Below are positions 32,244 through 48,197 of a DNA stretch of 64,000 nucleotides, piece after piece. Positions within the stretch are counted from its first letter, which is position 1. Each line of letters starts with the position of its first letter. The translations under genes were made by a program, and so were the position numbers. The stretch is from a candidate division KSB1 bacterium (GTDB lineage Bacteria > Zhuqueibacterota > Zhuqueibacteria > JANLFK01 > Oleimicrobiaceae), in assembly GCA_024655945.1 (NCBI GenBank), contig JANLFK010000005.1, forward strand, positions 317 through 64,316, given 5' to 3'. The notes under the pieces are model-generated. The model did not search any database and was not told the origin of the DNA. It saw nothing but the letters and a program-made list of their open reading frames with translations.

Positions 32244-35200
32244 TCAAAGGCCGTGCTCGCGCCAGCTCTTGATCTGCAACTGGGCGGGCGATTTTCGCGC
32301 CATGGCCTCGACAAAACGCCGCGCCAGTTGCATGTTCGTAATCACCGGCACGTTATAGTCCACGGCGGTGCGGCGGATGATGTAGTCGTTGGTAAGCTCT
32401 TCTTCCTGATAGTTCTTGGGGATGTTGATGACCAGGTCGATCTTCCCCTGGCTGATGTACTGCACGGTGCTGGGCGACTTGCCGCTCAGCGGCCAGTGGA
32501 GATGGATGGAGTGCACGCCGTTCGCCTCCAAGAAGCGACAAGTGCCGCCGGTGGCGTACAGAGTAATGCCCATGCTGGCCAATACCCTGGCGCTGCCTAA
32601 GAACTCCGCCTTGCTCTCGATAGGGCCAGTTGACAGAAGAACCGACCTGATGGGCAGCCGATACCCTACCGCAAGGAGAGCCTTGAGAAATGCCTCCTCA
32701 AAATCATCGCCAAGACAGGCAACCTCTCCTGTCGAGGCCATCTCCACCCCGAGCGTGGGGTCCGCACCTTCCAGGCGGGTGAAGGAGAACTGGGGGGCCT
32801 TAACGCCCACGTACTCCAAGTCGAGCAGGGAGCGAGAGTTCTTCGGCACTTCCAGACCCATGACCACTCTGGTAGCCAGATCGATAAAGTTCACCTTGGC
32901 GATCTTGGACACAAATGGAAAGCTCCGTGAGGCGCGCAGGTTGCATTCGATGACCTTGACCTCGTTATCCTTGGCCAGAAACTGAATGTTGAAAGGTCCG
33001 TTGATACGCAGGGCCTCGGCAATGCGGCGCGTGATGTGCAGCACCCGGCGCATGGTCTCCAGATAGGTGCGCTGCGGCGGCAACACGATGGTGGCATCCC
33101 CCGAGTGTACACCGGCGTTCTCCACGTGCTCGGTCACCGCGTACACAACCAGCTGCCCATCCTTGGCCACCGCGTCGATTTCGATCTCTTTGGCGTTCTC
33201 GAAGAACTTGCTGATGACCACCGGGTGGTCGACGGACACCTCAGCGGCGCGCTCTAAGTAGCGGGCAAGTTCGGCGTCGTTGGAGGCCACGCTCATGGCC
33301 GCGCCACTCAGCACGTAGGACGGTCGCACCAAGACGGGGTAACCCACCGTTCGCGCAAACTCCTGGGCCGAGGCCAAGCTCTCCAGTTCCTCCCATGCAG
33401 GCTGGTCGATGTCCAGACTGTCCAAGAGGGCGGAAAACTTGCGCCGGTCCTCGGCCTGATCAATGTCCACCGGTGAGGTGCCCAACACGCGCACGCCCGC
33501 GCGATGGCATTTCATTGCCAGATTGTTCGGGATCTGTCCCCCTGCGGAGATGATGACCCCGAGCGGGTTCTCCTTCTCGTAGATATCCAGCACGGTCTCG
33601 AAGCTCAGCTCGTCGAAGTACAGGCGGTCACACTCGTCATAGTCGGTGCTGACGGTCTCGGGATTGTAGTTCACCATGATAGTGCGGTAGCCCAACTGGC
33701 GCAGGGTGTGGACGGTGCTCACACAGCACCAGTCGAATTCCACTGAACTCCCCACCCGATACGCGCCGGAACCCAACACCATCACCGCCTGCTCGTGGCC
33801 TGCGGGGACGTCATCTTCGCTGCCGTTGTAGGTGAGATAGAGGTAGTTGGTCTGCGCGGGATACTCGGCCGCCAAGGTGTCGATCTGCTTCACCACCGGA
33901 ACGATGCCGCGCCGTTTCCGCAACCCACGAACCTGGGCTTCGCTCAATCCGGTGAGGCGGGCTATCTGGAGGTCGCTGAATCCGTGCTGCTTTGCCCGAC
34001 GCAGCAGCGCCGCAGAAACTGCGCTCTTGGTCCGGCTGAGCTCACCTTCGATTGCAACGATATTGGCAATCTTGTGCAAGAACCAGGGGTCGATGTGGGT
34101 GAGCTCGTACACACGCTCCACAGAGAGACCGGCCCTCAGCGCCTCGGCGATGGCAAACACCCTGCGATCGGTGGGCTCGCACAGCTCTCTCTTCAAGTCC
34201 GCAATGGGGTGCCAGCAGTTGGCGACCAGTCCCACCGCGCCGATTTCCAACATGCGCAGGGCCTTTTGCAGCGCCTCCTCGAACTTGCGGCCGATGGCCA
34301 TCACCTCACCCACCGACTTCATGCCAGAGCCAATTCTGCGGGAGACCATGCGGAATTTGCTCAGGTCCCAGCGCGGCACCTTGACCACCACATAGTCCAG
34401 AGCCGGTTCGAAGCACGCCTTCGTCACCTTGGTGATGGAATTCTCCAAGTCGGTGAGGCTGTGCCCCAGCGCCAACTTCGCGGCCACGAACGCCAAGGGA
34501 TAGCCAGTCGCCTTGGAGGCAAGAGCAGAACTGCGCGACAGGCGGGCATTGACCTCGATGACGCGGTAGTCTTCATCGCGCGGATGGAGCGCAAATTGGA
34601 TGTTGCACTCCCCCACAATCTTGAGGTGCCGAACCACTTTGATGGCCACTTCGCGCAAGAGGTGGTACTCACGGTTGTTGAGGGTTTGGCTCGGCGCGAC
34701 CACAATGCTCTCACCGGTGTGGATGCCCATGGGGTCAAAGTTTTCCATGTTGCACACGGTAATGCAATTGTCGAAGTGGTCGCGCACCACCTCGTACTCG
34801 ACCTCTTTCCACCCGTCCAGAAATTCCTCGATAAGCACCTGCGGGGTGAACGCAAAGGCCTTGCTGGTCCGCTCGCGCAGGGCCTCTTCATCCACGCACA
34901 CGCCGGAGCCAAGTCCACCCAGGGCATAGGCCACCCGTACCATCACCGGATAGCCAATGCTCCTGGCCACGCTCACCGCTTCCTCGGTAGAGGTGACCGC
35001 CTGGTTGCACGGGGTCTTGACGCCAATGCCGGTCAGGCACTCCACAAAAAGGCCGCGGTCCTCGGTGCGGCGGATCCCTTCCACCGAGGTACCCAGCACT
35101 GCGACCCCGAGCCGGTCGAGCACCCCTTCATCGTGCAGGCGTAAGCCGCAGTTGAGGGCCGTCTGCCCCCCGAAGCCAAGCAAAATACCATCAGGGCGCT

Positions 35201-35435
35201 CTTTCTCGATCACCTGCGTGACGAACTCCGGAGTCACCGGCAGGAAGTAAACCTCGTCGGCAAGATAGTCCGAAGTCTGGATGGTGGCGATGTTTGGGTT
35301 CACCAGAACGACGGTGACCCCCTCCTGCTTGAGGGCCTTGATGGCCTGGCTGCCAGAATAGTCGAACTCGCCAGCCTCGCCAATCTTCAGGGCCGAGCTG
35401 CCCAGCACGAGTACCTTTTTGGGAAGAGCGTTCAC
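32244..35435 (-). CDS. carB: Carbamoyl-phosphate synthase large subunit
   Basis: 1063 residues, full length. Two synthetase halves each carry an ATP-grasp domain: VLVLGSSALKIGEAGEFDYSG and LGSGAYRVGSSVEFDW open the two halves. They are followed by an oligomerisation segment and a C-terminal MGS-like allosteric domain (~930-1063). It makes carbamoyl phosphate from bicarbonate, ammonia delivered from CarA, and two ATP, for arginine and pyrimidine synthesis. The GTG start overlaps the carA stop by four bases. Opening residues GSSALKIGEAGEFD differ slightly from the common GSGPIVIGQACEFD, a variant seen in some lineages. Confidence 0.97.
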   Translation of the reverse strand: MNALPKKVLVLGSSALKIGEAGEFDYSGSQAIKALKQEGVTVVLVNPNIATIQTSDYLADEVYFLPVTPEFVTQVIEKERPDGILLGFGGQTALNCGLRLHDEGVLDRLGVAVLGTSVEGIRRTEDRGLFVECLTGIGVKTPCNQAVTSTEEAVSVARSIGYPVMVRVAYALGGLGSGVCVDEEALRERTSKAFAFTPQVLIEEFLDGWKEVEYEVVRDHFDNCITVCNMENFDPMGIHTGESIVVAPSQTLNNREYHLLREVAIKVVRHLKIVGECNIQFALHPRDEDYRVIEVNARLSRSSALASKATGYPLAFVAAKLALGHSLTDLENSITKVTKACFEPALDYVVVKVPRWDLSKFRMVSRRIGSGMKSVGEVMAIGRKFEEALQKALRMLEIGAVGLVANCWHPIADLKRELCEPTDRRVFAIAEALRAGLSVERVYELTHIDPWFLHKIANIVAIEGELSRTKSAVSAALLRRAKQHGFSDLQIARLTGLSEAQVRGLRKRRGIVPVVKQIDTLAAEYPAQTNYLYLTYNGSEDDVPAGHEQAVMVLGSGAYRVGSSVEFDWCCVSTVHTLRQLGYRTIMVNYNPETVSTDYDECDRLYFDELSFETVLDIYEKENPLGVIISAGGQIPNNLAMKCHRAGVRVLGTSPVDIDQAEDRRKFSALLDSLDIDQPAWEELESLASAQEFARTVGYPVLVRPSYVLSGAAMSVASNDAELARYLERAAEVSVDHPVVISKFFENAKEIEIDAVAKDGQLVVYAVTEHVENAGVHSGDATIVLPPQRTYLETMRRVLHITRRIAEALRINGPFNIQFLAKDNEVKVIECNLRASRSFPFVSKIAKVNFIDLATRVVMGLEVPKNSRSLLDLEYVGVKAPQFSFTRLEGADPTLGVEMASTGEVACLGDDFEEAFLKALLAVGYRLPIRSVLLSTGPIESKAEFLGSARVLASMGITLYATGGTCRFLEANGVHSIHLHWPLSGKSPSTVQYISQGKIDLVINIPKNYQEEELTNDYIIRRTAVDYNVPVITNMQLARRFVEAMARKSPAQLQIKSWREHGL

Positions 35436-36499
35436 AACAGCCCCACGAATTCGTCAAAGAGAAAGCCTGTGTCCACCGGCCCAGGGCAGGCCTCGGGATG
35501 GAACTGCACTCCCATGAATGGCTTCGCTCGATGACGCACACCCTCGTTGGTACCGTCGTTGGCATTCACGAACCACGGCTCCCACCCCTCGGGCAGGGTG
35601 CGCGTGTCCACCGCATACCCATGGTTCTGCGAAGTGATGAAGCACCGCTTGGACCCAACCTCGATACACGGCTGGTTCTGGCTGCGATGCCCAAATTTCA
35701 GTTTGTAGGTGTTCGCCCCGGCCGCGAGCGCAATGAGCTGGTTCCCGAGACAAATGCCGAGCACGGGCTTTTCCCCTTCCAGCACCTTGCGGAGGGTGTG
35801 GATAGCGGCACGGGCCATCTTGGGGTCACCAGGGCCATTCGACACCACCACCCCGTGGTAGTCTTCGCGGGAGAGGTCATAGTCCCAGGGCACGCGGAGC
35901 ACGCTCACCTTGCGGGCCAATAAGCTCCGCAGGATGCCGTGCTTGCAGCCGCAATCAATGAGCACCACCCGCTTGGTTCCGTCGCCGAGAAGCTGCGGCT
36001 CCTGCACGCTGACCCTGGCGACCAAGTTCTCCTTGTTTGGGTCCCAAAGGGCCGGCTCTCGCCCAGCTCCCACCACCAGCTTGCCCGGCATCGTCCCCTT
36101 TTCCCGCAGGCGTTTGGTCAACATGCGCGTATCCACCCCGAAGATCCCCGGCACCCCTTCAGCGCGAAGCCACTCGTCCAAAGAAAGAGCACTGTCCCAA
36201 TGGCTCGGCTGGTCACAGAGTTCGGAGACGACCACGCCCGACACGTGAATGCGCTGGGACTCGAACTTTGCGGAGACAGGGCCGCGGGGCTCATCACCTG
36301 GCACACCGTAGTTCCCCATCGGGGGGTAGGTGAACACAAGGATCTGCCCGCTGTAGGAAGGGTCGGTGAGCGACTCCGGGTAGCCCACCATGCCTGTGGT
36401 GAAAACCACCTCGCCGGCGGTGGAACCGGCGGAGCCGAAGCCCCATCCCGACATCACGGTGCCGTCTTCAAGAAGTAGTTTCGCCTTGTGTCTCTCCAT
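35432..36499 (-). CDS. carA: Carbamoyl-phosphate synthase small subunit
   Basis: 355 residues. N-terminal CarA-specific domain (KAKLLLEDGTVMSGWGFG; VVFTTGMVGYPESLTDPSY) and a class I glutamine amidotransferase domain with GICLGNQLIALAAGA (nucleophile Cys) and GVQFHPEACPGP (His, Glu). It releases ammonia from glutamine for CarB. ATG 36499 is chosen because GGGAG precedes it and the domain starts there. A perfect 12-base inverted repeat sits 50-80 bases upstream in the leader. Confidence 0.96.
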   Translation of the reverse strand: MERHKAKLLLEDGTVMSGWGFGSAGSTAGEVVFTTGMVGYPESLTDPSYSGQILVFTYPPMGNYGVPGDEPRGPVSAKFESQRIHVSGVVVSELCDQPSHWDSALSLDEWLRAEGVPGIFGVDTRMLTKRLREKGTMPGKLVVGAGREPALWDPNKENLVARVSVQEPQLLGDGTKRVVLIDCGCKHGILRSLLARKVSVLRVPWDYDLSREDYHGVVVSNGPGDPKMARAAIHTLRKVLEGEKPVLGICLGNQLIALAAGANTYKLKFGHRSQNQPCIEVGSKRCFITSQNHGYAVDTRTLPEGWEPWFVNANDGTNEGVRHRAKPFMGVQFHPEACPGPVDTGFLFDEFVGLL

Positions 36500-36548
36500 T
36501 GCTCCCAGCAACAGGTAGCCAAGCCGCTCGTTCTTGCGTCTGCATACG

Positions 36549-36578
36549 GCAATGGCGTCCCCATGCGGACGCCATTGC
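36549..36578 (-). promoter_or_regulatory. 12-base inverted repeat in the carA leader
   Basis: GCAATGGCGTCC (36549-36560), six-base loop, GGACGCCATTGC (36567-36578). No T-tract follows on either strand, so it is not a standard terminator. It lies ~50 bases before carA and could control its transcript or act as an operator. Confidence 0.45.
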
Positions 36579-36675
36579 GGTCCCTGCCCGTTGCACACCG
36601 CACAATCACACCTGGTGCGCCCCAGCTCCTGGTCGCATGCGTCCCTGCCTCACGGGCCGAGGAAGGACCGCCCGC

Positions 36676-37197
36676 CTACTCCACCAGCACCAGGGAAACC
36701 AGATCATAGCACGCATCTGCGGAGGTGACCACCTCCAACGAGAGCCCTACGTTGCGCACTGTCGCATAGACGTCGATGCCGCAGGCTTCCATGGCCGGCC
36801 GCGCCAGCCGCGGATGCGAGCATGGCTTGGTGACGTCGCATTCGTCGCACAGCGGACATGGGCCCGCGCCCAACGCGAAGGCCTTGTAGTAGCCGTCCAA
36901 GAACAAGCGCCGTTCCAACTCCGCCACAAGCCTGCGCCCGAGCAGTCGCACCTTCTCTTCGCCCTCTGCCGGGTTGCGGTCGAAGCGCAGCAACAGCCCC
37001 CGCTGGTATTCCGCCAGCCAGCGACGAGTCACCTCCGGCGTGGGGCTATGAGGCGGGCAGGTAAGGCAGGCGCCGTAGCCCCCGCACCCGTACTGGCACT
37101 TCAGGCGCACCCATTCGGCCACGCTCACCGCCGAGACGGGAATCTCGAGACACGCCGTCGCTCCGCCCTGCAGGGCTTGCTGTACGTATTTTTCCAT
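36676..37197 (-). CDS. DUF2284 cysteine-rich metal-binding protein
   Basis: 173 residues with the DUF2284 pattern of cysteines: RLKCQYGCGGYGACLTCPPH near residue 35 and GPCPLCDECDVTKPCSHP near 115. DUF2284 proteins are putative metal-binding proteins of unknown function, perhaps iron-sulfur. Start 37197 is chosen because GGAGGG lies directly upstream. It lies 79 bases downstream of the KamA gene on the same strand and may be the last gene of that operon. Confidence 0.85.
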   Translation of the reverse strand: MEKYVQQALQGGATACLEIPVSAVSVAEWVRLKCQYGCGGYGACLTCPPHSPTPEVTRRWLAEYQRGLLLRFDRNPAEGEEKVRLLGRRLVAELERRLFLDGYYKAFALGAGPCPLCDECDVTKPCSHPRLARPAMEACGIDVYATVRNVGLSLEVVTSADACYDLVSLVLVE

Positions 37198-37276
37198 CCC
37201 TCCACCCGACACATTTCAGGGAAGGCCAAAGCGAGCCCAGTACTCGGTCGACAGGGCCCTGAGGCCAGACCTCGGC

Positions 37277-38395
37277 CTACGCCAGCAGGTCTGCCTCCTC
37301 TGGCAACGCGCCAACCAGCTCAAGCTCTGAGGCTGCGCTGACCGGAACCGTGCGCGATCCCGGCTGCCGATAGCGGAATATGCACCCTTCGTAGTTGCGG
37401 AGCACCACCTCGCGTTCATCCATGGCCACGACGTAATGGGGCAGGAGCGGAATCTTGCCACCACCGCCAGGGGCATCGATGACAAAGTGTGGCACCGCCA
37501 AGCCGGAGGTCCAGCCCCGCAGCGCCTTGATAATCTCCAGCCCTTTCTCTACCCGTGTGCGGAAGTGCTCCGTACCGAAAACCATGTCGGCCTGGTAAAT
37601 ATAGTAAGGCCGCACCCGGGCCTGCAAGAGTTTTTGTACGAGCCGCTTCATCACTTCCGGGTCGTCATTGACGCCCTTCAGCAGCACCGTCTGGTTGCCC
37701 AGGGGGATGCCCGCGTCTGCCAGACGAGCGAGCGCACGCACGGCAAGAGGCGTCAGCTCGTCGGGGTGATTGAAGTGGACGTTGACGTACAAGGGGTGGA
37801 ACTTCTTGAGCAGCTTGGCGAGCTTGGCGGTCACGCGCTGGGGCAGGAAGCACGGGACGCGCGTACCAATGCGGATGATCTGCACATGGGGGATGCGCCT
37901 AAGCTTCTGCAAGACAAAGCCGAGCATTTCGTCGCTGAGCAGCAGCGGATCCCCGCCCGAGAGAATCACGTCCCGGATCTCAGGGTGCTGCGCGATGTAC
38001 TCGATCCCCTCGTCGATGTACTTCATGCTGATTTTGCTCGGGTCGCCCACCTTGCGCTTGCGCGTGCAGAACCGGCAGTAGGAAGCGCACACATGCGAGA
38101 TCAAAAACAGGCACCGGTCAGGGTAGCGGAGCACGATGTTGTTGACCGGCGAATCTTTGTCCTCGGCCAGTGGGTCCTGAAAAAGCTCACTGTCTTCCAG
38201 CTCGCGGACGTCGGGCACCACTTGCTTATAGAGCGGGTCGCCCTTGCTCTTTATCAACGAAAGGTAGTACGGGGTAATGCGGATCTTGAATTGGCGTTCT
38301 ACTCTCTCCAGGTCCTCCAATGAAATGTTGAACTTCTTGGCCAGTTGCTCAGCGCTGGTGATGCTCCGCTGTAGTTGTCGCCGCCAGCCTTCCAT
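37277..38395 (-). CDS. kamA: Lysine 2,3-aminomutase (KamA family radical SAM enzyme)
   Basis: 372 residues. The radical SAM cluster motif C-x3-C-x2-C is CASYCRFC (Cys 103, 107, 110). DAPGGGGK provides the PLP lysine (Lys 314). Asp 270 (in YQADMVFG) and Asp 307 (in VIDAPGGGG) sit 37 residues apart, and Asp 307 lies seven before the PLP lysine. That is the spacing of Asp293, Asp330 and Lys337 in the clostridial enzyme, where the two aspartates hold the epsilon-amino group. So lysine, not glutamate, is the likely substrate and beta-lysine the product. It is shorter than clostridial KamA at the C-terminus. ATG 38395 is chosen from GGAGG 11 bases upstream; it overlaps the acetyltransferase gene by 47 bases. 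Confidence 0.9.
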   Translation of the reverse strand: MEGWRRQLQRSITSAEQLAKKFNISLEDLERVERQFKIRITPYYLSLIKSKGDPLYKQVVPDVRELEDSELFQDPLAEDKDSPVNNIVLRYPDRCLFLISHVCASYCRFCTRKRKVGDPSKISMKYIDEGIEYIAQHPEIRDVILSGGDPLLLSDEMLGFVLQKLRRIPHVQIIRIGTRVPCFLPQRVTAKLAKLLKKFHPLYVNVHFNHPDELTPLAVRALARLADAGIPLGNQTVLLKGVNDDPEVMKRLVQKLLQARVRPYYIYQADMVFGTEHFRTRVEKGLEIIKALRGWTSGLAVPHFVIDAPGGGGKIPLLPHYVVAMDEREVVLRNYEGCIFRYRQPGSRTVPVSAASELELVGALPEEADLLA

Positions 38396-38900
38396 GTGGT
38401 GTTTGCCCTCCTTCAGGCGTTGCGTTGAGGCGCTTGGCAAAGATCAGTCTATCGTCACCTGGACGGTAGAAATCCTTGATGCGCGCCTCCACCGTGTAGT
38501 TATTCCGCAAATAGAATTGCTGCGTTGGCAGATACTTCTTCTGCGAGGACGTGTCAATGATGATGAGGCGACCGCTCTGGCTCTTCACATACTCCTCCAC
38601 GAACTGCAAGAGTTGCTTGCCGACTCCCTTGTTCTGCATGGCCGGGGCGACCGCGATCCAATAGAGGTCGAAGGTGCCCTCCGTCGCCGGCGTGGGGCCG
38701 AAACATACATAGCCTACGACCTGTCCACCCTCGGCAACTGCCGCATAGACCAGGTAGTCCTTCTGATCCTTGTTGAAGAGATAGGTGTCGATCAGTTCCA
38801 TGGCCACGTTCACCTCGGCCATGGTAAACATATCTGTCTGCTGGAGGATCTCATAGACCGCGGCACGATCCTCCGGCCCCAGTTTTCTAATTGTGATCAT
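38349..38900 (-). CDS. GNAT family N-acetyltransferase of the KamA cluster
   Basis: 183 residues with a full GNAT fold: FDLYWIAVAPAMQNKGVGKQLL gives the acetyl-CoA loop, and QQFYLRNNYTVEARIKDFYRPGDDRLIFAKR is the C-terminal strand pair typical of RimI-like enzymes. Its gene overlaps the upstream ATP-grasp gene by 14 bases and KamA by 47 bases, so the proteins are co-expressed. In archaea, KamA-type AblA works with an acetyltransferase AblB to make N-epsilon-acetyl-beta-lysine. This GNAT may play the AblB role, but it is not clearly orthologous to AblB. Confidence 0.82.
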   Translation of the reverse strand: MITIRKLGPEDRAAVYEILQQTDMFTMAEVNVAMELIDTYLFNKDQKDYLVYAAVAEGGQVVGYVCFGPTPATEGTFDLYWIAVAPAMQNKGVGKQLLQFVEEYVKSQSGRLIIIDTSSQKKYLPTQQFYLRNNYTVEARIKDFYRPGDDRLIFAKRLNATPEGGQTPHGRLAATTTAEHHQR

Positions 38901-39915
38901 TGCAACCCCTACTCAATGCGTGCGCAAGCAGGTGATCCACAAACTCCTCGAAGGTAATCCCCGCCGCCCTGAGGGCGCGGGCGTACCCGGCCGCCGGGGA
39001 GATGTCCGGGTTGGGATTGAACTCCAGCACGAAGATCGCCCCTTTGGCGTCTAGCCGCATGTCCACCCGGCCGTAGTCGCGGCCATGAAGCAGGTGGAAC
39101 ACACGCAGTGCCGTCCGCTCCAGTCGCCGCCGAAGGCCCTCCTCCACTCGTGCCGGGCACACAGCAGGCGTGCTCTGGAAGAGCGGATGGTCGGGCAACC
39201 ACTTCGCTTCGTAGCTGGTAATCCGCGGGGTGTCGGCGTCCAGTACCGAAAAGTCAATCTCCGACAGCGGCAGTACCTGCGGCGGCTCGCCATCGAGCAC
39301 GCTCACGTTGAACTCCCGGCCGTCGACATACTCCTCCACGAGCACCGGTTGGCGATACTTGGTCAGCAGTGCCTCCACCACCTCCGGCAGCTGCGTTGCC
39401 TCTTTCACCACCGACTGCGCGGTAATGCCGAGGCTGGCATCCTCTTGCGAAGGCTTAGCGATCGCCGGAAGAGGGAGGCAGAGGTCCGTGGGTCTCGGCA
39501 CGGCGGTGTAGACATGATATGCCGGAGTGCGGATCCCCGCAGCGGCGAAGAGTCGCTTGGCCACTACTTTGTTCTGCGCCATGCCCAAGGCGAGAGGCGG
39601 ATTACCCGTGTACGGCACACCCAGCAGTTCCCACACGCCTGCCACCGCCATCTCATGCTGCGCCTTCCCCTTGTAGGCCTCACACAAGTTGAAGATGACG
39701 TCGGGCTTGGCCCTGCGTACCTCCTCGATGGCCGATCCGATGTCATCCACGGCTAAGTGGGCCGGCTGGTGACCGAGACGCAACAGCGCCTGGTAGACAG
39801 CCTCCACCTCATATCTGACAGCCGCTTCTGAAACCCAGTCCGGATCGTCGTCCACTGGCGGCACCAGCTTGTCGTAGGCCACCAGCACCTTCAGCCCTTG
39901 TCGGCTCGTCCTCAT
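38887..39915 (-). CDS. ATP-grasp ligase B, D-Ala-D-Ala-ligase-like
   Basis: 342 residues with D-Ala-D-Ala ligase layout. An N-terminal domain (PDVIFNLCEAYKGKAQHE; LLGVPYTGNPPLALGMAQNK) is followed by the central ATP-grasp domain (LPAIAKPSQEDASLGI; PVLVEEYVDGREFNVSV). The metal-binding end is GRVDMRLDAKGAIFVLEFNPNPDI. The family forms amide bonds through an acyl phosphate. Start 39915 overlaps the upstream ligase stop by four bases (ATGA). Two related ligases side by side may act in sequence on one small molecule. The substrate is unknown; beta-lysine or its acetyl form is a candidate by context. Confidence 0.85.
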   Translation of the reverse strand: MRTSRQGLKVLVAYDKLVPPVDDDPDWVSEAAVRYEVEAVYQALLRLGHQPAHLAVDDIGSAIEEVRRAKPDVIFNLCEAYKGKAQHEMAVAGVWELLGVPYTGNPPLALGMAQNKVVAKRLFAAAGIRTPAYHVYTAVPRPTDLCLPLPAIAKPSQEDASLGITAQSVVKEATQLPEVVEALLTKYRQPVLVEEYVDGREFNVSVLDGEPPQVLPLSEIDFSVLDADTPRITSYEAKWLPDHPLFQSTPAVCPARVEEGLRRRLERTALRVFHLLHGRDYGRVDMRLDAKGAIFVLEFNPNPDISPAAGYARALRAAGITFEEFVDHLLAHALSRGCNDHN

Positions 39916-40964
39916 GCGGCGGTCATCCCGTATCGCGCTGCGGCAATCTCCACTACGTGGTTCACCATCCGCTGGTAGCTGTATCCTGCGGTGCGCGCCG
40001 CCTTGGGGAAACATGAGTTATCCTCTGGGTTCGGCAAGATCCCCGGCAACGGATTCAGCTCCAGGATGTGCGGACGACCTGCGGCATCTGCCCGCACGTC
40101 GATGCGACACCAGTCCCGAATGTGCAGCACACGGTAGGCCCGCTTCACCAGCAGTTGGAGCTCGGCCCGCGCTTCATCCGCCAAAGGAGCCGGGCACTCG
40201 AAGATGCGCAGTGGCTGCTCGGGCCTATCCCACACCCACTTCGCCTCGTAAGAGTACAAGGGGCGCGCCCCGGCAGGAAGCTCGTCATAGACGATCTCGA
40301 CGATGGGGAGCACTTCCAAGTCATCGCCGTTGCCCCAGACTGCGACGGTGAATTCACGGCCAGCGAGGAATTCCTCCACCAACACCGGTTGCTGGTACGT
40401 GGCCCAGCACTTTGCCACCTGCTGCCTCGCCTGCGCGGGCGTGTCGGCCACTGAGTCGTTGAAAACGCCTTTGCTGCTGCCCTCCGACACCGGCTTCACA
40501 ATCACCGGGAACCGCAGCCCGCGCAGGTCTACTTGCTCGCCCACCTGCGCAACTCTAAAGCGCGGCGTAGGGATGCCGTAGTAGCTGAGAATCTCCTTCG
40601 CCCGCGCTTTGTTCAGACAGATGGCGAGAGTCAGAGGGCCTGAGCCCGTGTAAGGGATGCCCAACTGTTCGCACACCATGGGCACATAGGACTCGCGGAA
40701 ATCGCCGAACAGCCCCTCGGCGATGTTGAAGACAAGGTCTGGCCGGTGGCGCCGTAACGCGGCCGCAGCTCGGTCGTCGCCTTCCACACCCTGCACCTTG
40801 TGACCACCACTGCGCAGGGCATCGATTACCGCCTGGATGGTTTCTTCCGAGTCCCCTTCGGCAAAAAAGTCCGGAGGGATGTCGGCCCCCGCCTTATGGC
40901 GGCCATTCCTTCGGTACTGAGCCAGAAGCCCATCCTTGCTGCTAAAGGTGACGACAATATTCAT
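39912..40964 (-). CDS. ATP-grasp ligase A, D-Ala-D-Ala-ligase-like
   Basis: 350 residues, first gene of the cluster. It has the D-Ala-D-Ala-ligase layout: PDLVFNIAEGLFGDFRES, LGIPYTGSGPLTLAICLNK, then FPVIVKPVSEGSSKGV and PVLVEEFLAGREFTVAV in the ATP-grasp domain, and CRIDVRADAAGRPHILELNPLPGI for metal binding. The N-terminus begins MNIVVTFSSKDGL. ATG 40964 is chosen because the sigma-54-type promoter (41037-41052) puts the transcript start near 41025. It is coupled to ligase B. A role in cell wall D-Ala-D-Ala synthesis is unlikely given the pairing and the aminomutase context. Confidence 0.85.
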   Translation of the reverse strand: MNIVVTFSSKDGLLAQYRRNGRHKAGADIPPDFFAEGDSEETIQAVIDALRSGGHKVQGVEGDDRAAAALRRHRPDLVFNIAEGLFGDFRESYVPMVCEQLGIPYTGSGPLTLAICLNKARAKEILSYYGIPTPRFRVAQVGEQVDLRGLRFPVIVKPVSEGSSKGVFNDSVADTPAQARQQVAKCWATYQQPVLVEEFLAGREFTVAVWGNGDDLEVLPIVEIVYDELPAGARPLYSYEAKWVWDRPEQPLRIFECPAPLADEARAELQLLVKRAYRVLHIRDWCRIDVRADAAGRPHILELNPLPGILPNPEDNSCFPKAARTAGYSYQRMVNHVVEIAAARYGMTAA

Positions 40965-41036: not shown

Positions 41037-41052
41037 TACAATGACTGTGCCA
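41037..41052 (-). promoter_or_regulatory. Sigma-54 (-24/-12) promoter of the ATP-grasp/KamA operon
   Basis: On the minus strand TGGCAC (41052-41047), five bases, TTGTA (41041-41037). The -24 half is a perfect match to TGGCAC; the -12 half has GT where GC is usual. The transcript start would be near 41025, 60 bases before ligase A. The gene just upstream encodes a sigma-54 activator. Confidence 0.6.
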
Positions 41053-41078
41053 AGATGAGGACGGCAATGTAACCACCT

Positions 41079-41101
41079 GTTGTATAAGCCGGTTAGACAA
41101 C
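41079..41101 (-). promoter_or_regulatory. Dyad upstream of the sigma-54 promoter, candidate activator site
   Basis: GTTGTATAAGCC followed directly by GGTTAGACAAC: an imperfect inverted repeat of about 23 bases centred near 41090, 27-49 bases upstream of the -24 element. Activators of the NtrC family bind such dyads. The rest of the 40965-41287 gap holds no gene. Confidence 0.45.
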
Positions 41102-41287
41102 TGTGAGATTGTCGCGGCGGCCACGCCTGGGGGGCCTATTTCCCAGATTGAAAATCGCGGGCGCTTGCGTCTCAGGCAGGCTATCAAAATGAGAGAAGAG
41201 GTGGTCGACGTGCGGGTTTAAAGCTTCCCTTAGGGCTTGGGGCTGGCTATCTTGCCAGAAGCGGGGTGAGCTCTGTGCCTCTTCCCG

Positions 41288-42646
41288 CTACTGCTTCTCG
41301 AGGTTGTACTCTTTGATCTTCCGGTACAGGGTGGCAAGGCCTATTTGCAGCACGCGGGCAGCCTTCTGTTTGTCATAGTTGTGGAACTCCAAAGTCTTTT
41401 GCAGCGCCACGCGTTCGATTTCGGCGAAGGACATTCCCACCTCCAGTCCCATGTTGCGCGCCGAGCCCTCTGCCCCAGTGGCGAGCGCCGGAAAGTGGTA
41501 CGAGCGGAGCAGATTGTCCTGCGACAGCACCACCGCTCTTTCCACCATGTTCTCCAGCTCGCGGACATTTCCTCGCCACGGGTGACGCAACAGCTGCTTC
41601 ATCACCTCCGGCTCCACGCCCTGGATGTTCTTCCCATTGAGATGGTTGTACTTTTCGATAAAGTGCTGCACCAAGAAGGGGATGTCCTCCTGCCGCTCGC
41701 GCAGCGGTGGCACATGAATGCCGATGACGTTGAGGCGATAGTAGAGGTCCTCTCGGAACGTACCCTCCTCGACCTTCTTTTCCAGGTCGGCGTTGGTAGC
41801 GGCGATGATGCGCACGTCCACTTTGAGGGTAACCGTGCCCCCCAGCCTCTCGAACTCACCGTCCTGCAAGAAGCGAAGCAACTTGACCTGCATGGCCGGG
41901 GTGATCTCGCCAATTTCATCTAAGAAGAGCGAGCCACCGTCAGCCATCTCGATCTTCCCTTTCTTCTGTCGCACTGCACCGGTAAAGGCGCCCCGCTCGT
42001 ACCCGAACAGCTCAGCCTCGAGGAGATTCTCAGGGATGGCGCCACAGTTGATTTTGACGAAAGGCTTGCTGGCCCTTGGGCTGTGGTAGCGAATGGTAGC
42101 CGCGATCAGCTCCTTGCCTGTGCCGGTTTCGCCGGTAATGAGGATGGTGCTGCGCGAGGGGGCAACTTGCTTTGCTAACTCCACGACACGCTTAAAGGGC
42201 GGGCTGACGGCGACAAGTTTGGGCACGGCCTGAGAAAGTTCGAGCTTTTCTCGGAGACGTTCGTTCTCGCGTCGCAGCAGTATCGTCTCTCCAAGGCGGT
42301 CAAGCAGCCGCTGGAGGTCAGCCATGCGGAACGGCTTGACCAGGTAGTCATAGGCGCCGCTCCGGATAGAGGCCACCGCGGTCTCAACCGAGCCGTAGGC
42401 GGTGATCACAATGACCGCGACCTGCAGGCGGTGTTCCTGGACGTAGTTGACCACCTCAAGCCCTGATCCGTCCCTCAGCTTCAGGTCGGTGACCACAATG
42501 TCCACATCCTCGCTCTCCAGGGTCTTGAGGCCGCTGCGCAAGGATGTGGCGGTCTTGAGGAGATAGCGTGGCGAGGTCAATCCCTTCTGCAGAGCCTGAA
42601 GGGCCTCGACATCATCATCGATGATGAGAATGCTGAGCTCACTCAC
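41288..42646 (-). CDS. NtrC-family sigma-54-dependent response regulator
   Basis: 452 residues. Receiver domain (1-~120) with IIDDD acidic pocket, phosphoacceptor Asp in VTDLKLRDG (~53) and Lys in VKPFR (~104). AAA+ domain with Walker A GETGTGKE, the sigma-54 contact loop GAFTGA, Walker B GGSLFLDEIGE and an arginine finger region. A Fis-type helix-turn-helix ends the protein (QKAARVLQIGLATLYRKIKEY). It overlaps the kinase gene by eight bases. It should activate sigma-54 promoters on phosphorylation; the ATP-grasp/KamA operon starting 320 bases downstream has such a promoter. Confidence 0.95.
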   Translation of the reverse strand: MSELSILIIDDDVEALQALQKGLTSPRYLLKTATSLRSGLKTLESEDVDIVVTDLKLRDGSGLEVVNYVQEHRLQVAVIVITAYGSVETAVASIRSGAYDYLVKPFRMADLQRLLDRLGETILLRRENERLREKLELSQAVPKLVAVSPPFKRVVELAKQVAPSRSTILITGETGTGKELIAATIRYHSPRASKPFVKINCGAIPENLLEAELFGYERGAFTGAVRQKKGKIEMADGGSLFLDEIGEITPAMQVKLLRFLQDGEFERLGGTVTLKVDVRIIAATNADLEKKVEEGTFREDLYYRLNVIGIHVPPLRERQEDIPFLVQHFIEKYNHLNGKNIQGVEPEVMKQLLRHPWRGNVRELENMVERAVVLSQDNLLRSYHFPALATGAEGSARNMGLEVGMSFAEIERVALQKTLEFHNYDKQKAARVLQIGLATLYRKIKEYNLEKQ

Positions 42647-44195
42647 TGGTGACCTCTCCCTGTTCCACCTGCGGCAAGCTCACCGAAAAAAGTGCCCCTT
42701 GACCCACTTTCGAGCTGCAGGTAATGCGCCCCTCGTGGGCGGCAACGATCTCTCTTGACACAAAAAGGCCCAGACCTACACCGCTCTCCTTGGTCGTGAA
42801 GAAAGGCTCAAAGATTCTCTTCAAGTGCTCCGACTCGATGCCGGGGCCGTTATCGCGGATTGCCACCAACACTCTTTTCCCCCGGCGGCGCATGGCGACC
42901 CAGACATCCCCGCTGCCGTTCAGCACTTGCAGGGCGTTGGTGAAAATGTTGGCAAAGACCCGACGCAGTTGCACCCAATCGGCCATCACCCAGCACGACC
43001 AAGACGGGCGTCGGAAGTGGACCCGCACTTTGCGCAAGGCTGCCTCGTAGGCCGCATCCTGCACCCAACCGTCGACTAGCCCGACCAGCTCCACCGGCAC
43101 CATGTTGAGATCGGCCAGATGGGTATAGGCAAGGTAGTGGTTGAGGCTATCGCTGAGCTGCTGGATCTGTCCTTGGATCTTGCGCGTGAGTTCGCTCACC
43201 TCGGGATTCACGCCATTGGACCCACTTTCCAGGAGGCGCTCCAAGAGCTCGACGTGCAGGCCGATGTTGTTCAGCGGGTTGCGGATGTCATGCATCATGG
43301 CGCTGGTCAGCCGGGAGATGGCCATCAGCCGGTCGATCTGCCTGATCCGCGAGGCAAAACGCACCTGCTCGCCCAGCTCTTGGAAGCTGATGATGTAGTA
43401 GACGTTGCCAATGGACGGTTGTCGGAGGCGGGCGATGGAGACCATCGCCGGAAAGTAGTCGCCGCCCTTGCGGTAGATGCGCAGCTGCAGGTTGTGGCGG
43501 CGGCGCCGCTCGCAGCGGATCTCCCGCAAGAAGACCTCCCGCGACTGCCCATGAAAGAGCTCGAGGATGTTCTTCTTCAAGATGTCACCAGGGGCAAAGC
43601 CCGTGAGCCGAGCTGCCATAGGATTCCAGTGCAACACGTGCAGGTCCGCATCGCAGTCAGCCACTCCCAGCGGGTACTCCTTGATGATCTGATAGATGAC
43701 ATCCAGCTGCCGCTGCAAGTCGTTTTTAACAATCTTGAGCTCATTGATCAGCTGGTGGTCCTTAGCGCGCAGTTCCTGGTAGACCTTGCCCCACCACTCG
43801 CTCAGGAAGATGAGCGTCGTGTCGAATGCACGCTGCAGGAGCGCAAATTGCTCCTCAAAATCGTCGCTCATTTCCAAAGTGGTGTTGACCAGGAAGTGAT
43901 TGAGCACGATGCGCGCCGCCCCGAGGATGGCAAGTTGAGCGTGAAAGTTGTGTTTGAGGCGCGGGTTGCACTGAAACTCGCGCAGGTAGTATCTGGTGAG
44001 CTGGTAACCAGCTACCTGTCGGTTCTCTCCGCGAAGGTCCCGCTCGAGGTGGGCGAAGATACCCCCCAAGATCTTGGTGTACAAGTCGCTGGGCAAGTCC
44101 AGGTCGACGCCCCAGCGGGAAGTCAGCAGCGTTTCGGTGGCACTCTCCACCAGTGTTTCCACGTGCCCGTGGATGATCTCACTCAATGTAGCCAT
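42639..44195 (-). CDS. Cytoplasmic PAS-containing sensor histidine kinase (NtrB-like)
   Basis: 518 residues without transmembrane helices. The N-terminal ~170 residues are helical and unrecognised (possibly a RsbR-like globin sensor). A PAS domain follows (~190-300; LGVADCDADLHVLHWNPMAARLTGF). The phosphoacceptor His lies in SAMMHDIRNPLNNI (~320). The ATPase domain has N-box NIFTNALQVLNG, DNGPGIESEHLKRIFEPFFTTKESGVGLGL. It likely senses an intracellular signal and phosphorylates the overlapping NtrC-type regulator. Confidence 0.92.
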   Translation of the reverse strand: MATLSEIIHGHVETLVESATETLLTSRWGVDLDLPSDLYTKILGGIFAHLERDLRGENRQVAGYQLTRYYLREFQCNPRLKHNFHAQLAILGAARIVLNHFLVNTTLEMSDDFEEQFALLQRAFDTTLIFLSEWWGKVYQELRAKDHQLINELKIVKNDLQRQLDVIYQIIKEYPLGVADCDADLHVLHWNPMAARLTGFAPGDILKKNILELFHGQSREVFLREIRCERRRRHNLQLRIYRKGGDYFPAMVSIARLRQPSIGNVYYIISFQELGEQVRFASRIRQIDRLMAISRLTSAMMHDIRNPLNNIGLHVELLERLLESGSNGVNPEVSELTRKIQGQIQQLSDSLNHYLAYTHLADLNMVPVELVGLVDGWVQDAAYEAALRKVRVHFRRPSWSCWVMADWVQLRRVFANIFTNALQVLNGSGDVWVAMRRRGKRVLVAIRDNGPGIESEHLKRIFEPFFTTKESGVGLGLFVSREIVAAHEGRITCSSKVGQGALFSVSLPQVEQGEVTSE

Positions 44196-44483
44196 AGCCT
44201 TCCGCTCTGCCGCCCGGCTCGAGCGGAAATCTCATCCTCCTGCCTATTGCGCTCCGCATTGCCGCCCCAATCGGTGCCCGCGTCACCCTGCAGAACATTT
44301 TGTGCCGCCACGCGGGAACCAAGGGGGCCTATCCGCGTTTATCAGTTTGAAAGTCTCTTTTGGCGTTCTCGCGGCGGTCGTTTTCATTCTGATAAGGATA
44401 CTCAGAAAAAGGCAGCCGCGACGGCATGCGATGCCCCTGGTTAACCACTTGTACCGCAAAATGGTTAAGCCAGAGGCCTGAAC

Positions 44484-44517
44484 AGCTGGCACGCTCTTTG
44501 AGACTGTTTTGCCAGCT
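44484..44517 (+). promoter_or_regulatory. Sigma-54-like element inside an inverted repeat before the coiled-coil lipoprotein
   Basis: TGGCAC (44487-44492), five bases, TTGAG (44498-44502): a good -24 half but GA in place of GC at -12. The element is framed by the perfect repeat AGCTGGCA (44484-44491) and TGCCAGCT (44510-44517). A palindrome TGGTTAACCA lies at 44438-44447. The 44196-44687 gap has no gene. Confidence 0.35.
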
Positions 44518-44687: not shown

Positions 44688-45305
44688 ATGAGAAGCAGAA
44701 TGGTTTTGCCCCTGGTTGCGGTTGTTGCCGTGCTGGCGCTCGTCGCCGGCTGCGCGAAGGCTCCTGATCCCGAGCGCATCGACGCGGTGAAGGCTGCGTT
44801 GCAGGCCGCCAAGGCAGCAGAGGCGGATCGCTATGTACCGCAGCAGTACGCTGCCGCCAATGACTCTTTGAACGCCGCTCTGGCCGAGATCGAGAAGCAG
44901 AATGGCAAGTTTGCCCCCTTCCGCAAGTATGGCGTTGCCGAGCACTTGCTGCAGGTGGCCGAGGAGAAGGCCAAGGAGGCCGCGCAGGCAGCCGCAGTGA
45001 AAAGGGAAGAGGTGAAGAACGAGGCGACCGCCCTGATTCAGCAGGTGACTGACGCCACCGCGCAGGTCAAGAAGCTGTTTGCGAAGGCCCCCCGTGGCAA
45101 AGAAGGTCGCCAGGCGCTGGAACTGATTAAGAGCGATATCGGCGTGGTCGACAACACGGTTGCCGAGGCGAATGCAGCGATGGAGAAGGGTGACTACCTG
45201 ACGGCGCGCGACAAGGCCAAGGCCGCGCTAGACAAGGCAAACGCCCTGATCAATGAGCTGCAGGAAGTCATCAGCAAGAAGGCTGCGCTCACCAAGAAGA
45301 GGTAG
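44688..45305 (+). CDS. Coiled-coil lipoprotein, DUF4398-like
   Basis: 205 residues. Lipoprotein signal peptide (lipobox VAGC near residue 21) followed by an almost entirely helical, Ala/Lys/Glu-rich body. Its pattern (AALQAAKAAEADRYVPQQYAAANDSLNAAL) resembles DUF4398 outer-membrane or periplasmic lipoproteins. AAGGAG lies ~10 bases before the ATG. It ends in a strong terminator before the L,D-transpeptidase genes, which begin with a related helical segment. Perhaps it is a periplasmic spacer or wall-binding lipoprotein. Confidence 0.75.
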   Translation: MRSRMVLPLVAVVAVLALVAGCAKAPDPERIDAVKAALQAAKAAEADRYVPQQYAAANDSLNAALAEIEKQNGKFAPFRKYGVAEHLLQVAEEKAKEAAQAAAVKREEVKNEATALIQQVTDATAQVKKLFAKAPRGKEGRQALELIKSDIGVVDNTVAEANAAMEKGDYLTARDKAKAALDKANALINELQEVISKKAALTKKR

Positions 45306-45324: not shown

Positions 45325-45378
45325 AGGCCTCGTTCCGTTAACCCAGGGGACCCTCGCTTTGCGGAACGAGGCCTTTTT
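45325..45378 (+). terminator. Rho-independent terminator after the coiled-coil lipoprotein
   Basis: A perfect 13-base stem AGGCCTCGTTCCG (45325-45337) / CGGAACGAGGCCT (45362-45374), 24-base loop, then a T run. It separates the lipoprotein from the transpeptidase genes, although an abundant upstream transcript could read through. Confidence 0.88.
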
Positions 45379-45409
45379 GCGCCCACTCAACTCAGAATGT
45401 CGTCGACGC

Positions 45410-46597
45410 ATGATGCACCCTAATCAGGACCGTTTTCGCACGGCGAGGCGGGCCGCGCCCCACCCGAACAGGCGCTGGGTGGCAGCAGCCCTCATCTCCT
45501 GTGCCTGTACTGCGGCAGTGTACTTTGGCTTGTGGTTCGCCAGGCCCAAGCCACCTTTGCTGCTCCTTAACCAGGCGCGTATGGCGTTAAGCGCTGCTCG
45601 CCACGCAGAGGCACCGACCTATGCCCCCAAGCTCTGGCAGCAAGCAGAGGATTCGTGGGAGCACACCTTGCGCGCTTTTCAGGAGCAGCGGCGGCGCTGG
45701 TTCGTAAAGCGGGACTTTAGCGGCGCGGCCCAGTTAGCCCAGCGCACCTATACCCTTGCGGTTCAGGCGCAGGTCCGGGCAGTTGCCGCCAGGGATTCGC
45801 TTGCGGAACACGCTCGTACCGCAGCCAGTGCAGCGCAGCGCGAGATCGACGACTATCGCGCGCATTTCCGAGACTTGCCCGGAAGCAGCACCTATCGGGA
45901 GCGGGCAACGCGCAGTGAGCTCCTTCTGTTAGAGGCGCAAGCGGCCGCGCGGCGGGGAGACGTGCTGCGCGCGGCGGAGCGCCTCCGCGAGGCTAAGGAA
46001 GCCATCGGCTTGGCGGGCAATGGCTCCGCGAACACAGTGCGCGCCTACTTCGCCAAGGTTCCCACGTGGCAAGAGTGGGCGGAGGAAACAATTGCCTATT
46101 CTAAGGAACACGACTGCACGGTGGTCATCGTCGACAAGTTCGCGCACACGTGCCGCGTCTACCGGGCAGGCAAGCCCGTGGCAGAATTCTCGGTTGAGCT
46201 CGGCCCAAATTGGATGGGGCACAAGCGGCACAGAGGGGACAACGCCACCCCCGAGGGGCAGTACGTGGTCACCCAGAAAAAGGCAAAGCGCTCCACCACT
46301 TACTACAAGGCCCTGGTCATCAATTACCCCAACGAAGCAGACCGCCGTCAATTTGAGGTTAACAAACGAAGCGGCCAATTGCCGCCGGGAGCACAGATCG
46401 GCGGGCTCATCGAAATTCACGGCGAAGGGGGAAAGGGCTTTGACTGGACCAATGGCTGCGTGGCTCTGAGCAACGCCGACATGGACCGGCTGTACGACAT
46501 GGTGGACGTAGGCACCAGGGTGACTATCGTCGGCTCCCTGCGCAGCTGGGAGTCATGCTTTCGCGGCACCAACTATGCAACCCTCGGCACACAATGA
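45410..46597 (+). CDS. L,D-transpeptidase (YkuD) with helical anchor segment
   Basis: 395 residues. One N-terminal transmembrane helix (~25-44), a helical DUF4398-like stretch (LNQARMALSAARHAEAPTYAPKLW onward, ~53-200), then a YkuD domain (~240-375). The active site reads IEIHGEGGKG-x-DWTNGCVALSN: the cysteine and upstream His are present, but the usual S/T-H-G-C is T-N-G-C. The family cross-links or anchors proteins on peptidoglycan by 3-3 links. The start is at the first of two ATGs (45410/45413), with no strong ribosome binding site; a start within the terminator just upstream is unlikely. It is followed ten bases later by a second transpeptidase. Confidence 0.85.
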   Translation: MMHPNQDRFRTARRAAPHPNRRWVAAALISCACTAAVYFGLWFARPKPPLLLLNQARMALSAARHAEAPTYAPKLWQQAEDSWEHTLRAFQEQRRRWFVKRDFSGAAQLAQRTYTLAVQAQVRAVAARDSLAEHARTAASAAQREIDDYRAHFRDLPGSSTYRERATRSELLLLEAQAAARRGDVLRAAERLREAKEAIGLAGNGSANTVRAYFAKVPTWQEWAEETIAYSKEHDCTVVIVDKFAHTCRVYRAGKPVAEFSVELGPNWMGHKRHRGDNATPEGQYVVTQKKAKRSTTYYKALVINYPNEADRRQFEVNKRSGQLPPGAQIGGLIEIHGEGGKGFDWTNGCVALSNADMDRLYDMVDVGTRVTIVGSLRSWESCFRGTNYATLGTQ

Positions 46598-46606
46598 GCC
46601 AGCCAA

Positions 46607-47368
46607 ATGGGCTGTCCACAGCATCTGAGCCCTACAATGTGCAGCGACCTTGACATGAGCAGCTCAGCCCCGGATCAGGCAACCGCAACGGATGCCTTGC
46701 CGCCCGCGTCCAAGCCGCATTGGTTCGCCACTGCTGCGGCGGGCATTGCAGCCGGCTTACTGTTACTCCTCGCGGCGCCGGCACTGGAGAGCAGCATCGA
46801 AAAGGTGGTCGAGTCGGCGCGGGCAACTGCGCCGCCCTCAACAACCTCTGGCGTGCGCACGGCGCAGGAACGGCAGCTTCGGCGCCGCGTGGCGGAACTG
46901 CGCCGCCGCTTCAAGCGGCTTACGCCGGCAGGGCACTACCTCATCGTGGACACGGCCAACAATCGCATCTTTGTCAAGTCCGGCGACCACCTGGTGCATG
47001 AGGGGATCTGCTCCACCGGCAGCTATGTGATGCTCCGCGCCGGGGACAAGCGCACCTGGGTATTCAAGACGCCCAGAGGGATGTTCAGGGTGCACGCCAA
47101 GCTGGAAGCACCGGTGTGGCGCAAGCCCGACTGGGCGTTCATCGAAGAAGGCAGAGAACCACCGCCGCCCACCCATCCGGACAGATTCGAGTTCGGCGTG
47201 CTCGGTGAATATGCCCTCGCGTTCGGGGACGGCTACCTTGTGCACGGCACCTTGTACAAGCGTCTACTGGGAATGCCGGTCACCCACGGCTGCGTCCGCC
47301 TCGGCGACGAAGATCTGCGCATCGTCTACCACAAGCTGCAGGAAGGCTCAAGGATTTTCGTGTATTGA
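46607..47368 (+). CDS. L,D-transpeptidase (YkuD), canonical active site
   Basis: 253 residues. A membrane helix (~43-62), a short Arg-rich coiled coil, then a YkuD domain with YLVHGT and MPVTHGCVRLGDEDL, the complete His/Cys site. The substrate domain has long loops (KTPRGMFRVHAK). It is probably membrane-anchored in the periplasm. The start is uncertain: ATGs at 46607, 46637 and 46655 are all in frame. It ends one base before the next gene. Confidence 0.87.
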   Translation: MGCPQHLSPTMCSDLDMSSSAPDQATATDALPPASKPHWFATAAAGIAAGLLLLLAAPALESSIEKVVESARATAPPSTTSGVRTAQERQLRRRVAELRRRFKRLTPAGHYLIVDTANNRIFVKSGDHLVHEGICSTGSYVMLRAGDKRTWVFKTPRGMFRVHAKLEAPVWRKPDWAFIEEGREPPPPTHPDRFEFGVLGEYALAFGDGYLVHGTLYKRLLGMPVTHGCVRLGDEDLRIVYHKLQEGSRIFVY

Positions 47369-47369
47369 T

Positions 47370-48197
47370 ATGCGCCGCCACGTTCGGAAATCGCTCGCAG
47401 CAACTCCCAGGCACGACGACGCTGTGCCGGAAGGGCCGAGCCCTCGCTTCTGGGGCCGCCTGCTGGTGTTCTTGTTGCCAAGCCTTCTGGTTCTTGTCGG
47501 TGCCGTCCTCTGGCCGTTCCTTCTCGATCCCCTGCCGCCGGAGTCCGCCGCGCAAGCATCTGGCGGCAAGAACCAGCCAAGGCCCGACCCTTCGTTGGTA
47601 CCGCTTCTGGTGGAGGGGGCGTTTTTCAAGAATCGCCTGACCATCGCCAAGACCGATTCCATTGCCCTGAGCATCGACTTGGTCGACAGCCTGGTAACTT
47701 TGGACATCAGAGGGGTTCCGGTGCGCGAGTGCAAGATCCAGCGCTATTCAGCCAGTGGCGCGCTGCACCGCGCCCGGCGCTCGCCTCGGCTCGGCGAGTG
47801 GTTGAACAGGCCATTTGTCTTGCGCAAAGAGTGGGGGACCATCGCCAAGGCACCCATCAAGAAGGTGGACGCGCCCAAAGACACCGTGGAAGCGGAAAGG
47901 CTGGCCAATATGACTCCCCCGCCTGACAGCGGCGATGTAGCGTTCGTCCTCGAATTCACCCGCCATTTGACCATCAAAGTCAGCCAGGCGGAGGGGTTTT
48001 CCGGAAAAGGCCGCCTTCAGAAGTTCGCGGTGCTGGCCCAGCATCGCCTGGCAAGTCTGGTGGAGGGCTTTGCGGATTTCCGCCGGCTTCGCCAACCTGT
48101 ACCGCCGCTCATAGCGCGCATAGAGCTATCGCGCGCGGATGCCAAAGCCGTCTATCGCGCGCTCCCCCGTCACGCCCTATTGGCATTTCGCTTCTAA
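47370..48197 (+). CDS. Membrane-anchored protein of the transpeptidase operon, unknown function
   Basis: 275 residues. A basic N-terminus and one transmembrane helix (~30-52; LLVFLLPSLLVLVGAVLWPFLL) are followed by a periplasmic domain with a beta pattern (FFKNRLTIAKTDSIALSIDLVDSLVTLDIRGVPV) and a helical end. It begins one base after the L,D-transpeptidase stop and is surely co-transcribed. I do not recognise the family. A partner or regulator of the transpeptidases is the natural guess. Confidence 0.7.
   Translation: MRRHVRKSLAATPRHDDAVPEGPSPRFWGRLLVFLLPSLLVLVGAVLWPFLLDPLPPESAAQASGGKNQPRPDPSLVPLLVEGAFFKNRLTIAKTDSIALSIDLVDSLVTLDIRGVPVRECKIQRYSASGALHRARRSPRLGEWLNRPFVLRKEWGTIAKAPIKKVDAPKDTVEAERLANMTPPPDSGDVAFVLEFTRHLTIKVSQAEGFSGKGRLQKFAVLAQHRLASLVEGFADFRRLRQPVPPLIARIELSRADAKAVYRALPRHALLAFRF

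Follow-up and report, generated by a model that had tools for sequence, protein, structure and literature searches.

The systems closest to the locus described here are NtrC, AtoC, ZraR and GlrR/QseF, with which it shares a regulator of REC-AAA+-HTH_8 architecture, a linked kinase and a -24/-12 box that has dyad sites some 95-180 bases upstream; a review excerpt places activator sites approximately 100-150 bp upstream (PMC7057263). Compared with these systems, the present locus has a dyad of its own, TYTCA-N3-TGARA, with a strict period of 40-42 bp, and two promoters that flank the regulator operon, and its set of target genes is absent from the literature searched. QseE/QseF (GlrK/GlrR) of the Enterobacteriaceae is described, in the excerpt cited, as a two-component system of the sigma-54 type connected with envelope homeostasis (PMC6075780); its targets are glmY and rpoE, whereas here they would be an L,D-transpeptidase and a KamA operon, and the kinase here has a predicted globin/RsbR-like N-terminal fold and no Pfam membrane domain. 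The Salmonella psp promoters (pspA, pspG) share with the present ones a T at -12, but differ in activator and genes; in the part of the study cited, these sites carry T for C at -12 (TTGTA) and were enriched by sigma-54 ChIP (PMC3844500). Among the Salmonella sigma-54 sites displayed there T is the exception, whereas C is absent from the regulon described below. The kind of system, two-component and sigma-54 dependent, is already known; the regulon is new.

Results

The ATP-grasp/KamA operon

The window, that is, the whole stretch of 64,000 nucleotides analysed from a candidate division KSB1 bacterium, carries on its minus strand an operon whose first gene encodes an ATP-grasp protein of the D-Ala-D-Ala ligase family (ATP-grasp 1, 39912-40964). 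It is followed by a second member of that family (ATP-grasp 2, 38887-39915, its start at 39915 being placed from the translation in a frame that opens at 40014), a GNAT N-acetyltransferase (38349-38900) and KamA, of the lysine 2,3-aminomutase family (37277-38440). Aligned to 2a5h, KamA keeps Asp293, Asp330 and Arg134, which we take to be the lysine/substrate-binding residues, and for this reason beta-lysine is favoured as its product. Against the AblA model it scored 493.5 bits, under the curated cut-off of 525.4, whereas it clears the general KamA-family model TIGR00238; we therefore assign it no more narrowly than to the KamA family, with a predicted substrate.

The same four-gene order was found in 75 of 95 distinct loci, from many phyla, and KSB1 and Caldithrix metagenome bins are among the named relatives closest in ATP-grasp 1. 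On four archaeal contigs (L097, L101, L106 and L109, three of them named Bathyarchaeota) KamA adjoins ATP-grasp 1; the pathway is therefore not tied to peptidoglycan everywhere and reaches beyond bacteria. Downstream of KamA in the window, on the same strand, lie a DUF2284 gene and carA/carB (32244-37212), as they do in the same-genus genome G002, and a sigma-54 transcript might run into these pyrimidine/arginine genes. The literature searched yielded nothing on an operon of KamA or another aminomutase with ATP-grasp and acetyltransferase genes, nor on DUF4398 with a transpeptidase, and nothing linking KSB1 with sigma-54; papers on DUF4398, or on beta-lysine with ATP-grasp, concern other systems as far as their titles and the openings of their abstracts go.

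The sigma-54 box

An earlier note, made from this sequence alone, had proposed a sigma-54 promoter ahead of the operon, with the box TGGCAC-N5-TTGTA on the minus strand at 41052-41037, and had made the proposal depend on an rpoN gene in the genome and on conservation of the box in relatives. This -24/-12 box (TGGCACAGTCATTGTA, 41037-41052) is the sole exact TGGCACN5TTGTA match in the window; TGGCA[CT] is present at -24, and the TTG of the -12 element begins five bases past the -24 hexamer. At up to two mismatches the window holds 14 matches, against 11.8 expected from shuffles, which is no excess; the box by itself is therefore no proof, and as stand-alone evidence it was dropped. Such a frequency would also suit a chance match, with transcription of the operon starting at a sigma-70 type promoter or continuing from the regulator gene by read-through, and so would the lack of such a box ahead of the operon in most other phyla.

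The genome (3.94 Mb) has a single rpoN match, which is intact, with an open frame of 497 aa ending in ARRTVAKYRE, presumably the RpoN box motif. TGGCAYN5TTGYW occurs 30 times in this genome, against five for the reversed-pattern control, and exceeds that control in all 13 further genomes, with the smallest margins in G080 (13 vs 9) and G073 (17 vs 9). The organism therefore probably uses sigma-54 type promoters widely, and approximately half of these carry T at -12, a genome-wide statement for which the reversed-pattern control is the sole basis. In this GC-rich genome the sites do not divide cleanly into intergenic and coding ones, because long open frames cover both strands.

The box is kept in relatives. 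High-scoring boxes stand upstream of ATP-grasp 1 in the window and in G002, G009, G043, G053, G030, G022, G080, L034 and L035, with a few more in L084, L061, L058 and L104; few other phyla have them. Two of these loci, L061 and L058, one labelled Aminicenantes and the other Clostridiales, have a good sigma-54 box that lies approximately 240 bases ahead of ATP-grasp 1 and carries C at -12; the flank fetched for them holds no relative of the regulator. Judged from these comparisons, the box at 41052-41037 is almost certainly a true sigma-54 promoter, conserved in related bacteria.

Phased dyads upstream of the box

The regions behind the regulator gene have in common a dyad, TYTCA-N3-TGARA, with centres at approximately -94 and -134, counted from the box's first base. 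In the window, the proximal candidate activator dyad (TTTTCAATCTGGGAA, 41140-41154, minus strand) is centred at 41147, 95 bases upstream of the box, and the distal one (CTCTCATTTTGATAG, 41181-41195, minus strand) at 41188, 136 bases upstream of the box and 41 bp from the first. Several relatives have a third dyad at approximately -175; the window has the first two only. Positions relative to the start are counted with the first T of the box as -26, so that the proximal centre falls at approximately -121 from the expected start and the dyads in general at approximately -120, -160 and -200, with a period of 40-42 bp. Over 17 promoters, the centres are 41 bp apart in 11, 40 in three and 42 in three.

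When the window is aligned with G002, the box and both dyads stand out and little else does. Phased in this way, the dyads supply the candidate activator sites of a sigma-54 promoter, and they are likely to be those of the regulator encoded next to them. The earlier note had overlooked both. Box and dyads were thus kept while their surroundings drifted, and the full arrangement turned up in none of 24,000 shuffles, which argues against the chance match considered above; that explanation is now extremely improbable.

The activator site originally proposed was another dyad, GTTGTATAAGCC/GGTTAGACAAC (41079-41101), and its position, 27-49 bases upstream of the box, stands as given, with the regulator gene ending 187 bases beyond it at 41288. 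Seen in one sequence it was an attractive choice: its arms are perfect over 9 bp and it is the best inverted repeat in the window's 260 bases upstream of the box. Yet it has a single exact match in its own genome and none within two mismatches in G001 or G002, shows no excess over the reversed-pattern control, has no half-site pair in the upstream regions of the 10 relatives examined, and lies where the alignment with G002 shows no conservation. The missing copies in relatives and the lack of conservation led us to reject it as an activator site; a promoter activated through it is highly unlikely, and the dyad, present as it is, lies outside the mechanism proposed here. Comparison has in this case corrected a choice of activator site made on a single sequence.

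Co-occurrence with the regulator

We oriented 101 loci around ATP-grasp 1 (the window, 80 named and 20 others) and removed six duplicate contigs, which left 95 distinct loci; 91 of these were tested, four having fewer than 300 bases upstream. The composite was defined as TGGCAY-N5-TTG with dyads, at up to two mismatches, at -86 to -100 and at -127 to -141. It was present in all eight ATP-grasp loci with a regulator orthologue in the locus and in none of the 83 others, among which are three loci of family f10 whose genomes hold the regulator elsewhere. Fisher's test gives p = 1.2e-11, a value that overstates independence (17 promoters from a handful of related lineages) and is only indicative, because the distance windows were drawn from the same eight regions and the lineages are related. 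All composites in the 3.04 Mb of loci, both strands included, are promoters of this regulon. Of the two outcomes that the earlier note had named as refuting it, absence of rpoN from the genome and an operon conserved without the element, neither holds where the regulator adjoins the operon. In these respects the elements, their spacing and their association with the regulator follow from comparison.

Only after the motif had been fixed did both promoters of each of the genomes G055, G018 and G047 turn up, and likewise the promoter ahead of the L,D-transpeptidases in G001; the model R1 first flagged two unused places in G018, one before a DUF4398 gene and one just behind the regulator orthologue. 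These later sites lend independent, comparative support to the proposed link between dyads and regulator. In G018, G047 and G055 the full architecture stands before the DUF4398/L,D-transpeptidase operon and, across the regulator, before a second GNAT gene, the proximal dyad of the G047 GNAT promoter having three mismatches. In family f10 (L231:8815, L232:6974, L233:1445) the promoter behind the regulator drives this second GNAT, 38-42% identical to that of the window, and not the KamA operon, with unchanged box and dyad spacing. The KamA operon of this family is without the elements, though the regulator is present in the genome.

Of the 21 genomes searched, 10 have a regulator orthologue (E<=1e-125, 58-98% identity); in G003 and G008 there are just relatives of 46-49%. 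The model R1, trained on 15 dyad pairs of which two came from the second promoter (in G000, the window's own genome, and G002), matched eight of 82 genomes of the phylum at E<=0.001, and all eight are among the 10 with the orthologue; G018 and G047 went unmatched in that search, where stricter filters applied. Weak matches (E 0.0017 to 1) in regulator-free genomes, e.g., G043, G073 and G010, were taken as noise. A separate match in G018 (C120, E 0.024) has no dyad-bearing box. A fixed pattern of pairs 41 bp apart missed the second promoter of the window's own genome, because its spacing is 42; R1 found it.

In two loci, L113 (from G009) and L114 (from G043), a box precedes ATP-grasp 1 (L113:7273, with a matching box in L114) and the dyads are absent. 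A different NtrC-type regulator adjoins the ATP-grasp locus of G043; it is 46% identical and has another HTH. Given boxes without dyads and this other regulator, control may in G009 and G043 have passed to a different activator. L084, which has a regulator relative (47%), carries two dyads 41 bp apart, but at -212 and -171 from the box, so that no composite is formed.

The base at -12

The earlier note had described the -24 half of the box as perfect and the GT at -12 as a departure. The description holds; in this regulon, though, GT is the rule. TGGCA and TTG are invariant in the 17 promoters, and TTG is followed by T in 13, by A in four and by C in none, against C in 64 and T in 48 of the other TTGY sites of G000, G001, G002 and G030. 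The contrast has a Fisher p of 4e-5 on all promoters and of 8e-4 when collapsed to one per family and target, to be read with the fact that the promoters are related to one another and that part of the background consists of chance sites. C after TTG is a preference of the consensus and is not obligatory. Since pspA and pspG of Salmonella carry T at this position, GT is compatible with function. Taken together, the counts are a strong hint of selection, and a regulon that has no C at -12 matters for genome scans requiring TTGC.

A second promoter across the regulator operon

A promoter of the same build, missed in the earlier note, lies on the other side of the regulator. Its box (TGGCACGCTCTTTGAG, 44487-44502, plus strand) has a proximal dyad at 44381-44395 (centre 44388, 99 bases upstream) and a distal one at 44339-44353 (centre 44346, 141 bases upstream), both on the plus strand, and the two distances are identical in G001 and G002. 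It precedes a plus-strand operon with a DUF4398-type lipoprotein-like gene (44688-45305, its Pfam match below the curated cut-off), two YkuD L,D-transpeptidases (45359-46597 and 46607-47368) and an open frame of no known family (47268-48197), which is conserved along with its neighbours in the operon (at 63% in G002 and at 38-40% in family f10).

Among the carriers of both the regulator and a DUF4398 gene, the second promoter is present in G000, G001, G002, G018, G047 and G055 and absent from G053, G080 and L034, L035 being left out as its stretch is partly N. G053 and G080 have their DUF4398 genes elsewhere, without the elements, and the divergent DUF4398 operon of L034 has no box. Because box and dyads stand on both sides of the regulator, and the arrangement recurs in a second family that was unseen when the motif was set, it is probable that the kinase and regulator together control the operon on either flank, one encoding a beta-lysine/ATP-grasp pathway and the other a cell-wall module.

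The dyads might also belong to the adjacent regulator while the two operons are paired by position only, with no shared physiology. We take this to be a serious possibility, though not the one we favour: several lineages have the elements on one of the two operons only, and just three of the 80 named loci carry DUF4398/L,D-transpeptidase relatives in the fetched flank of the ATP-grasp operon. The double-sided layout, however, is kept in G000 and G002, and in family f10 with the GNAT in place of the KamA operon, and the linkage recurs outside the group. In the Nitrospinae locus L077 (2119-9189), ATP-grasp 2, GNAT, KamA, ATP-grasp 1, DUF4398 and two L,D-transpeptidases lie on one strand, and the regulator described here is absent from the locus; on this contig the two sets of genes are linked independently.

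Regulator and kinase

The regulator (41288-42646, minus strand) is an NtrC-family response regulator with a receiver, a sigma-54 AAA+ domain and a Fis-type HTH. Its translation contains GAFTGA, which we assume to be the loop contacting sigma-54, and the HTH helix TLYRK[IL]KEY is kept in all 12 orthologues. It scores under the curated cut-offs of the named NCBIfam equivalogs, its best matches being AtoC and NtrC (419 bits against 714 for AtoC).

The kinase (42639-44195, minus strand) is a PAS histidine kinase, and for its first 165 residues in the window protein Pfam gives no family; nor does Pfam give a membrane domain. AlphaFold models these residues with a pLDDT of 88.7. Foldseek returned nothing at E<=0.001 for this domain, the best being the globin sensor domain 5ohf (0.28) and RsbR 2bnl (0.39), and VIA-align was led by the stressosome entry 3zta (Z 14.9, rmsd 2.6, 138 aligned), followed by phycobiliprotein-type chains at Z 12.6 and below. 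For these reasons only a globin-like helical fold is claimed from the model, nearest to an RsbR-type stressosome module, and no ligand; no invariant histidine was seen in 11 sequences. The modelled fold and the lack of a Pfam membrane domain make a cytosolic stress signal the likely input.

Discussion

Taking these observations together, we propose that the kinase (42639-44195) phosphorylates the regulator (41288-42646), which would then bind the TYTCA-N3-TGARA array, centred approximately 95 and 136 bases before the box. A period of 41 bp is approximately four helical turns, and dimers of the Fis-type HTH would therefore lie on one face of the DNA, where they would assemble the AAA+ ring and, by looping, reach and open the sigma-54 holoenzyme. 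The same regulator would fire the mirror-image promoter at 44487, across its own operon, so that a stimulus would switch on both the ATP-grasp/ATP-grasp/GNAT/KamA operon and the DUF4398/L,D-transpeptidase operon. Binding, phosphorylation, looping and transcription are steps that we infer; on the comparative evidence, a sigma-54 promoter with phased dyads through which the adjacent two-component system switches both flanking operons is very probably the correct reading. The suggestion of the earlier note that the adjacent two-component system controls the ATP-grasp/KamA operon thus gains support, and is the most likely one, given the composite in all eight loci with a regulator orthologue. The unit predicted here is larger than had been described, comprising the two-component system, mirror-image sigma-54 promoters and phased dyads.

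Francke et al. proposed, in the text cited, that control of the bacterial exterior is the main role of sigma-54 (PMC3162934), and a joint envelope response would fit that proposal. We advance only tentatively, and as rather unlikely in its entirety, a wider reading in which a cytosolic kinase and its NtrC-type partner, through two mirror-image promoters, run an undescribed envelope-remodelling response in candidate phyla, with a beta-amino acid product destined for the cell wall or linked to it and a -12 element selected to lack C. For the joint response, shared control and gene neighbourhood are the whole of the evidence that speaks for it.

Through this regulon the four-gene pathway, with its two ATP-grasp ligases, GNAT acetyltransferase and KamA, becomes accessible to tests at the level of its regulation, and in one lineage the pathway is tied to cell-wall cross-linking enzymes.
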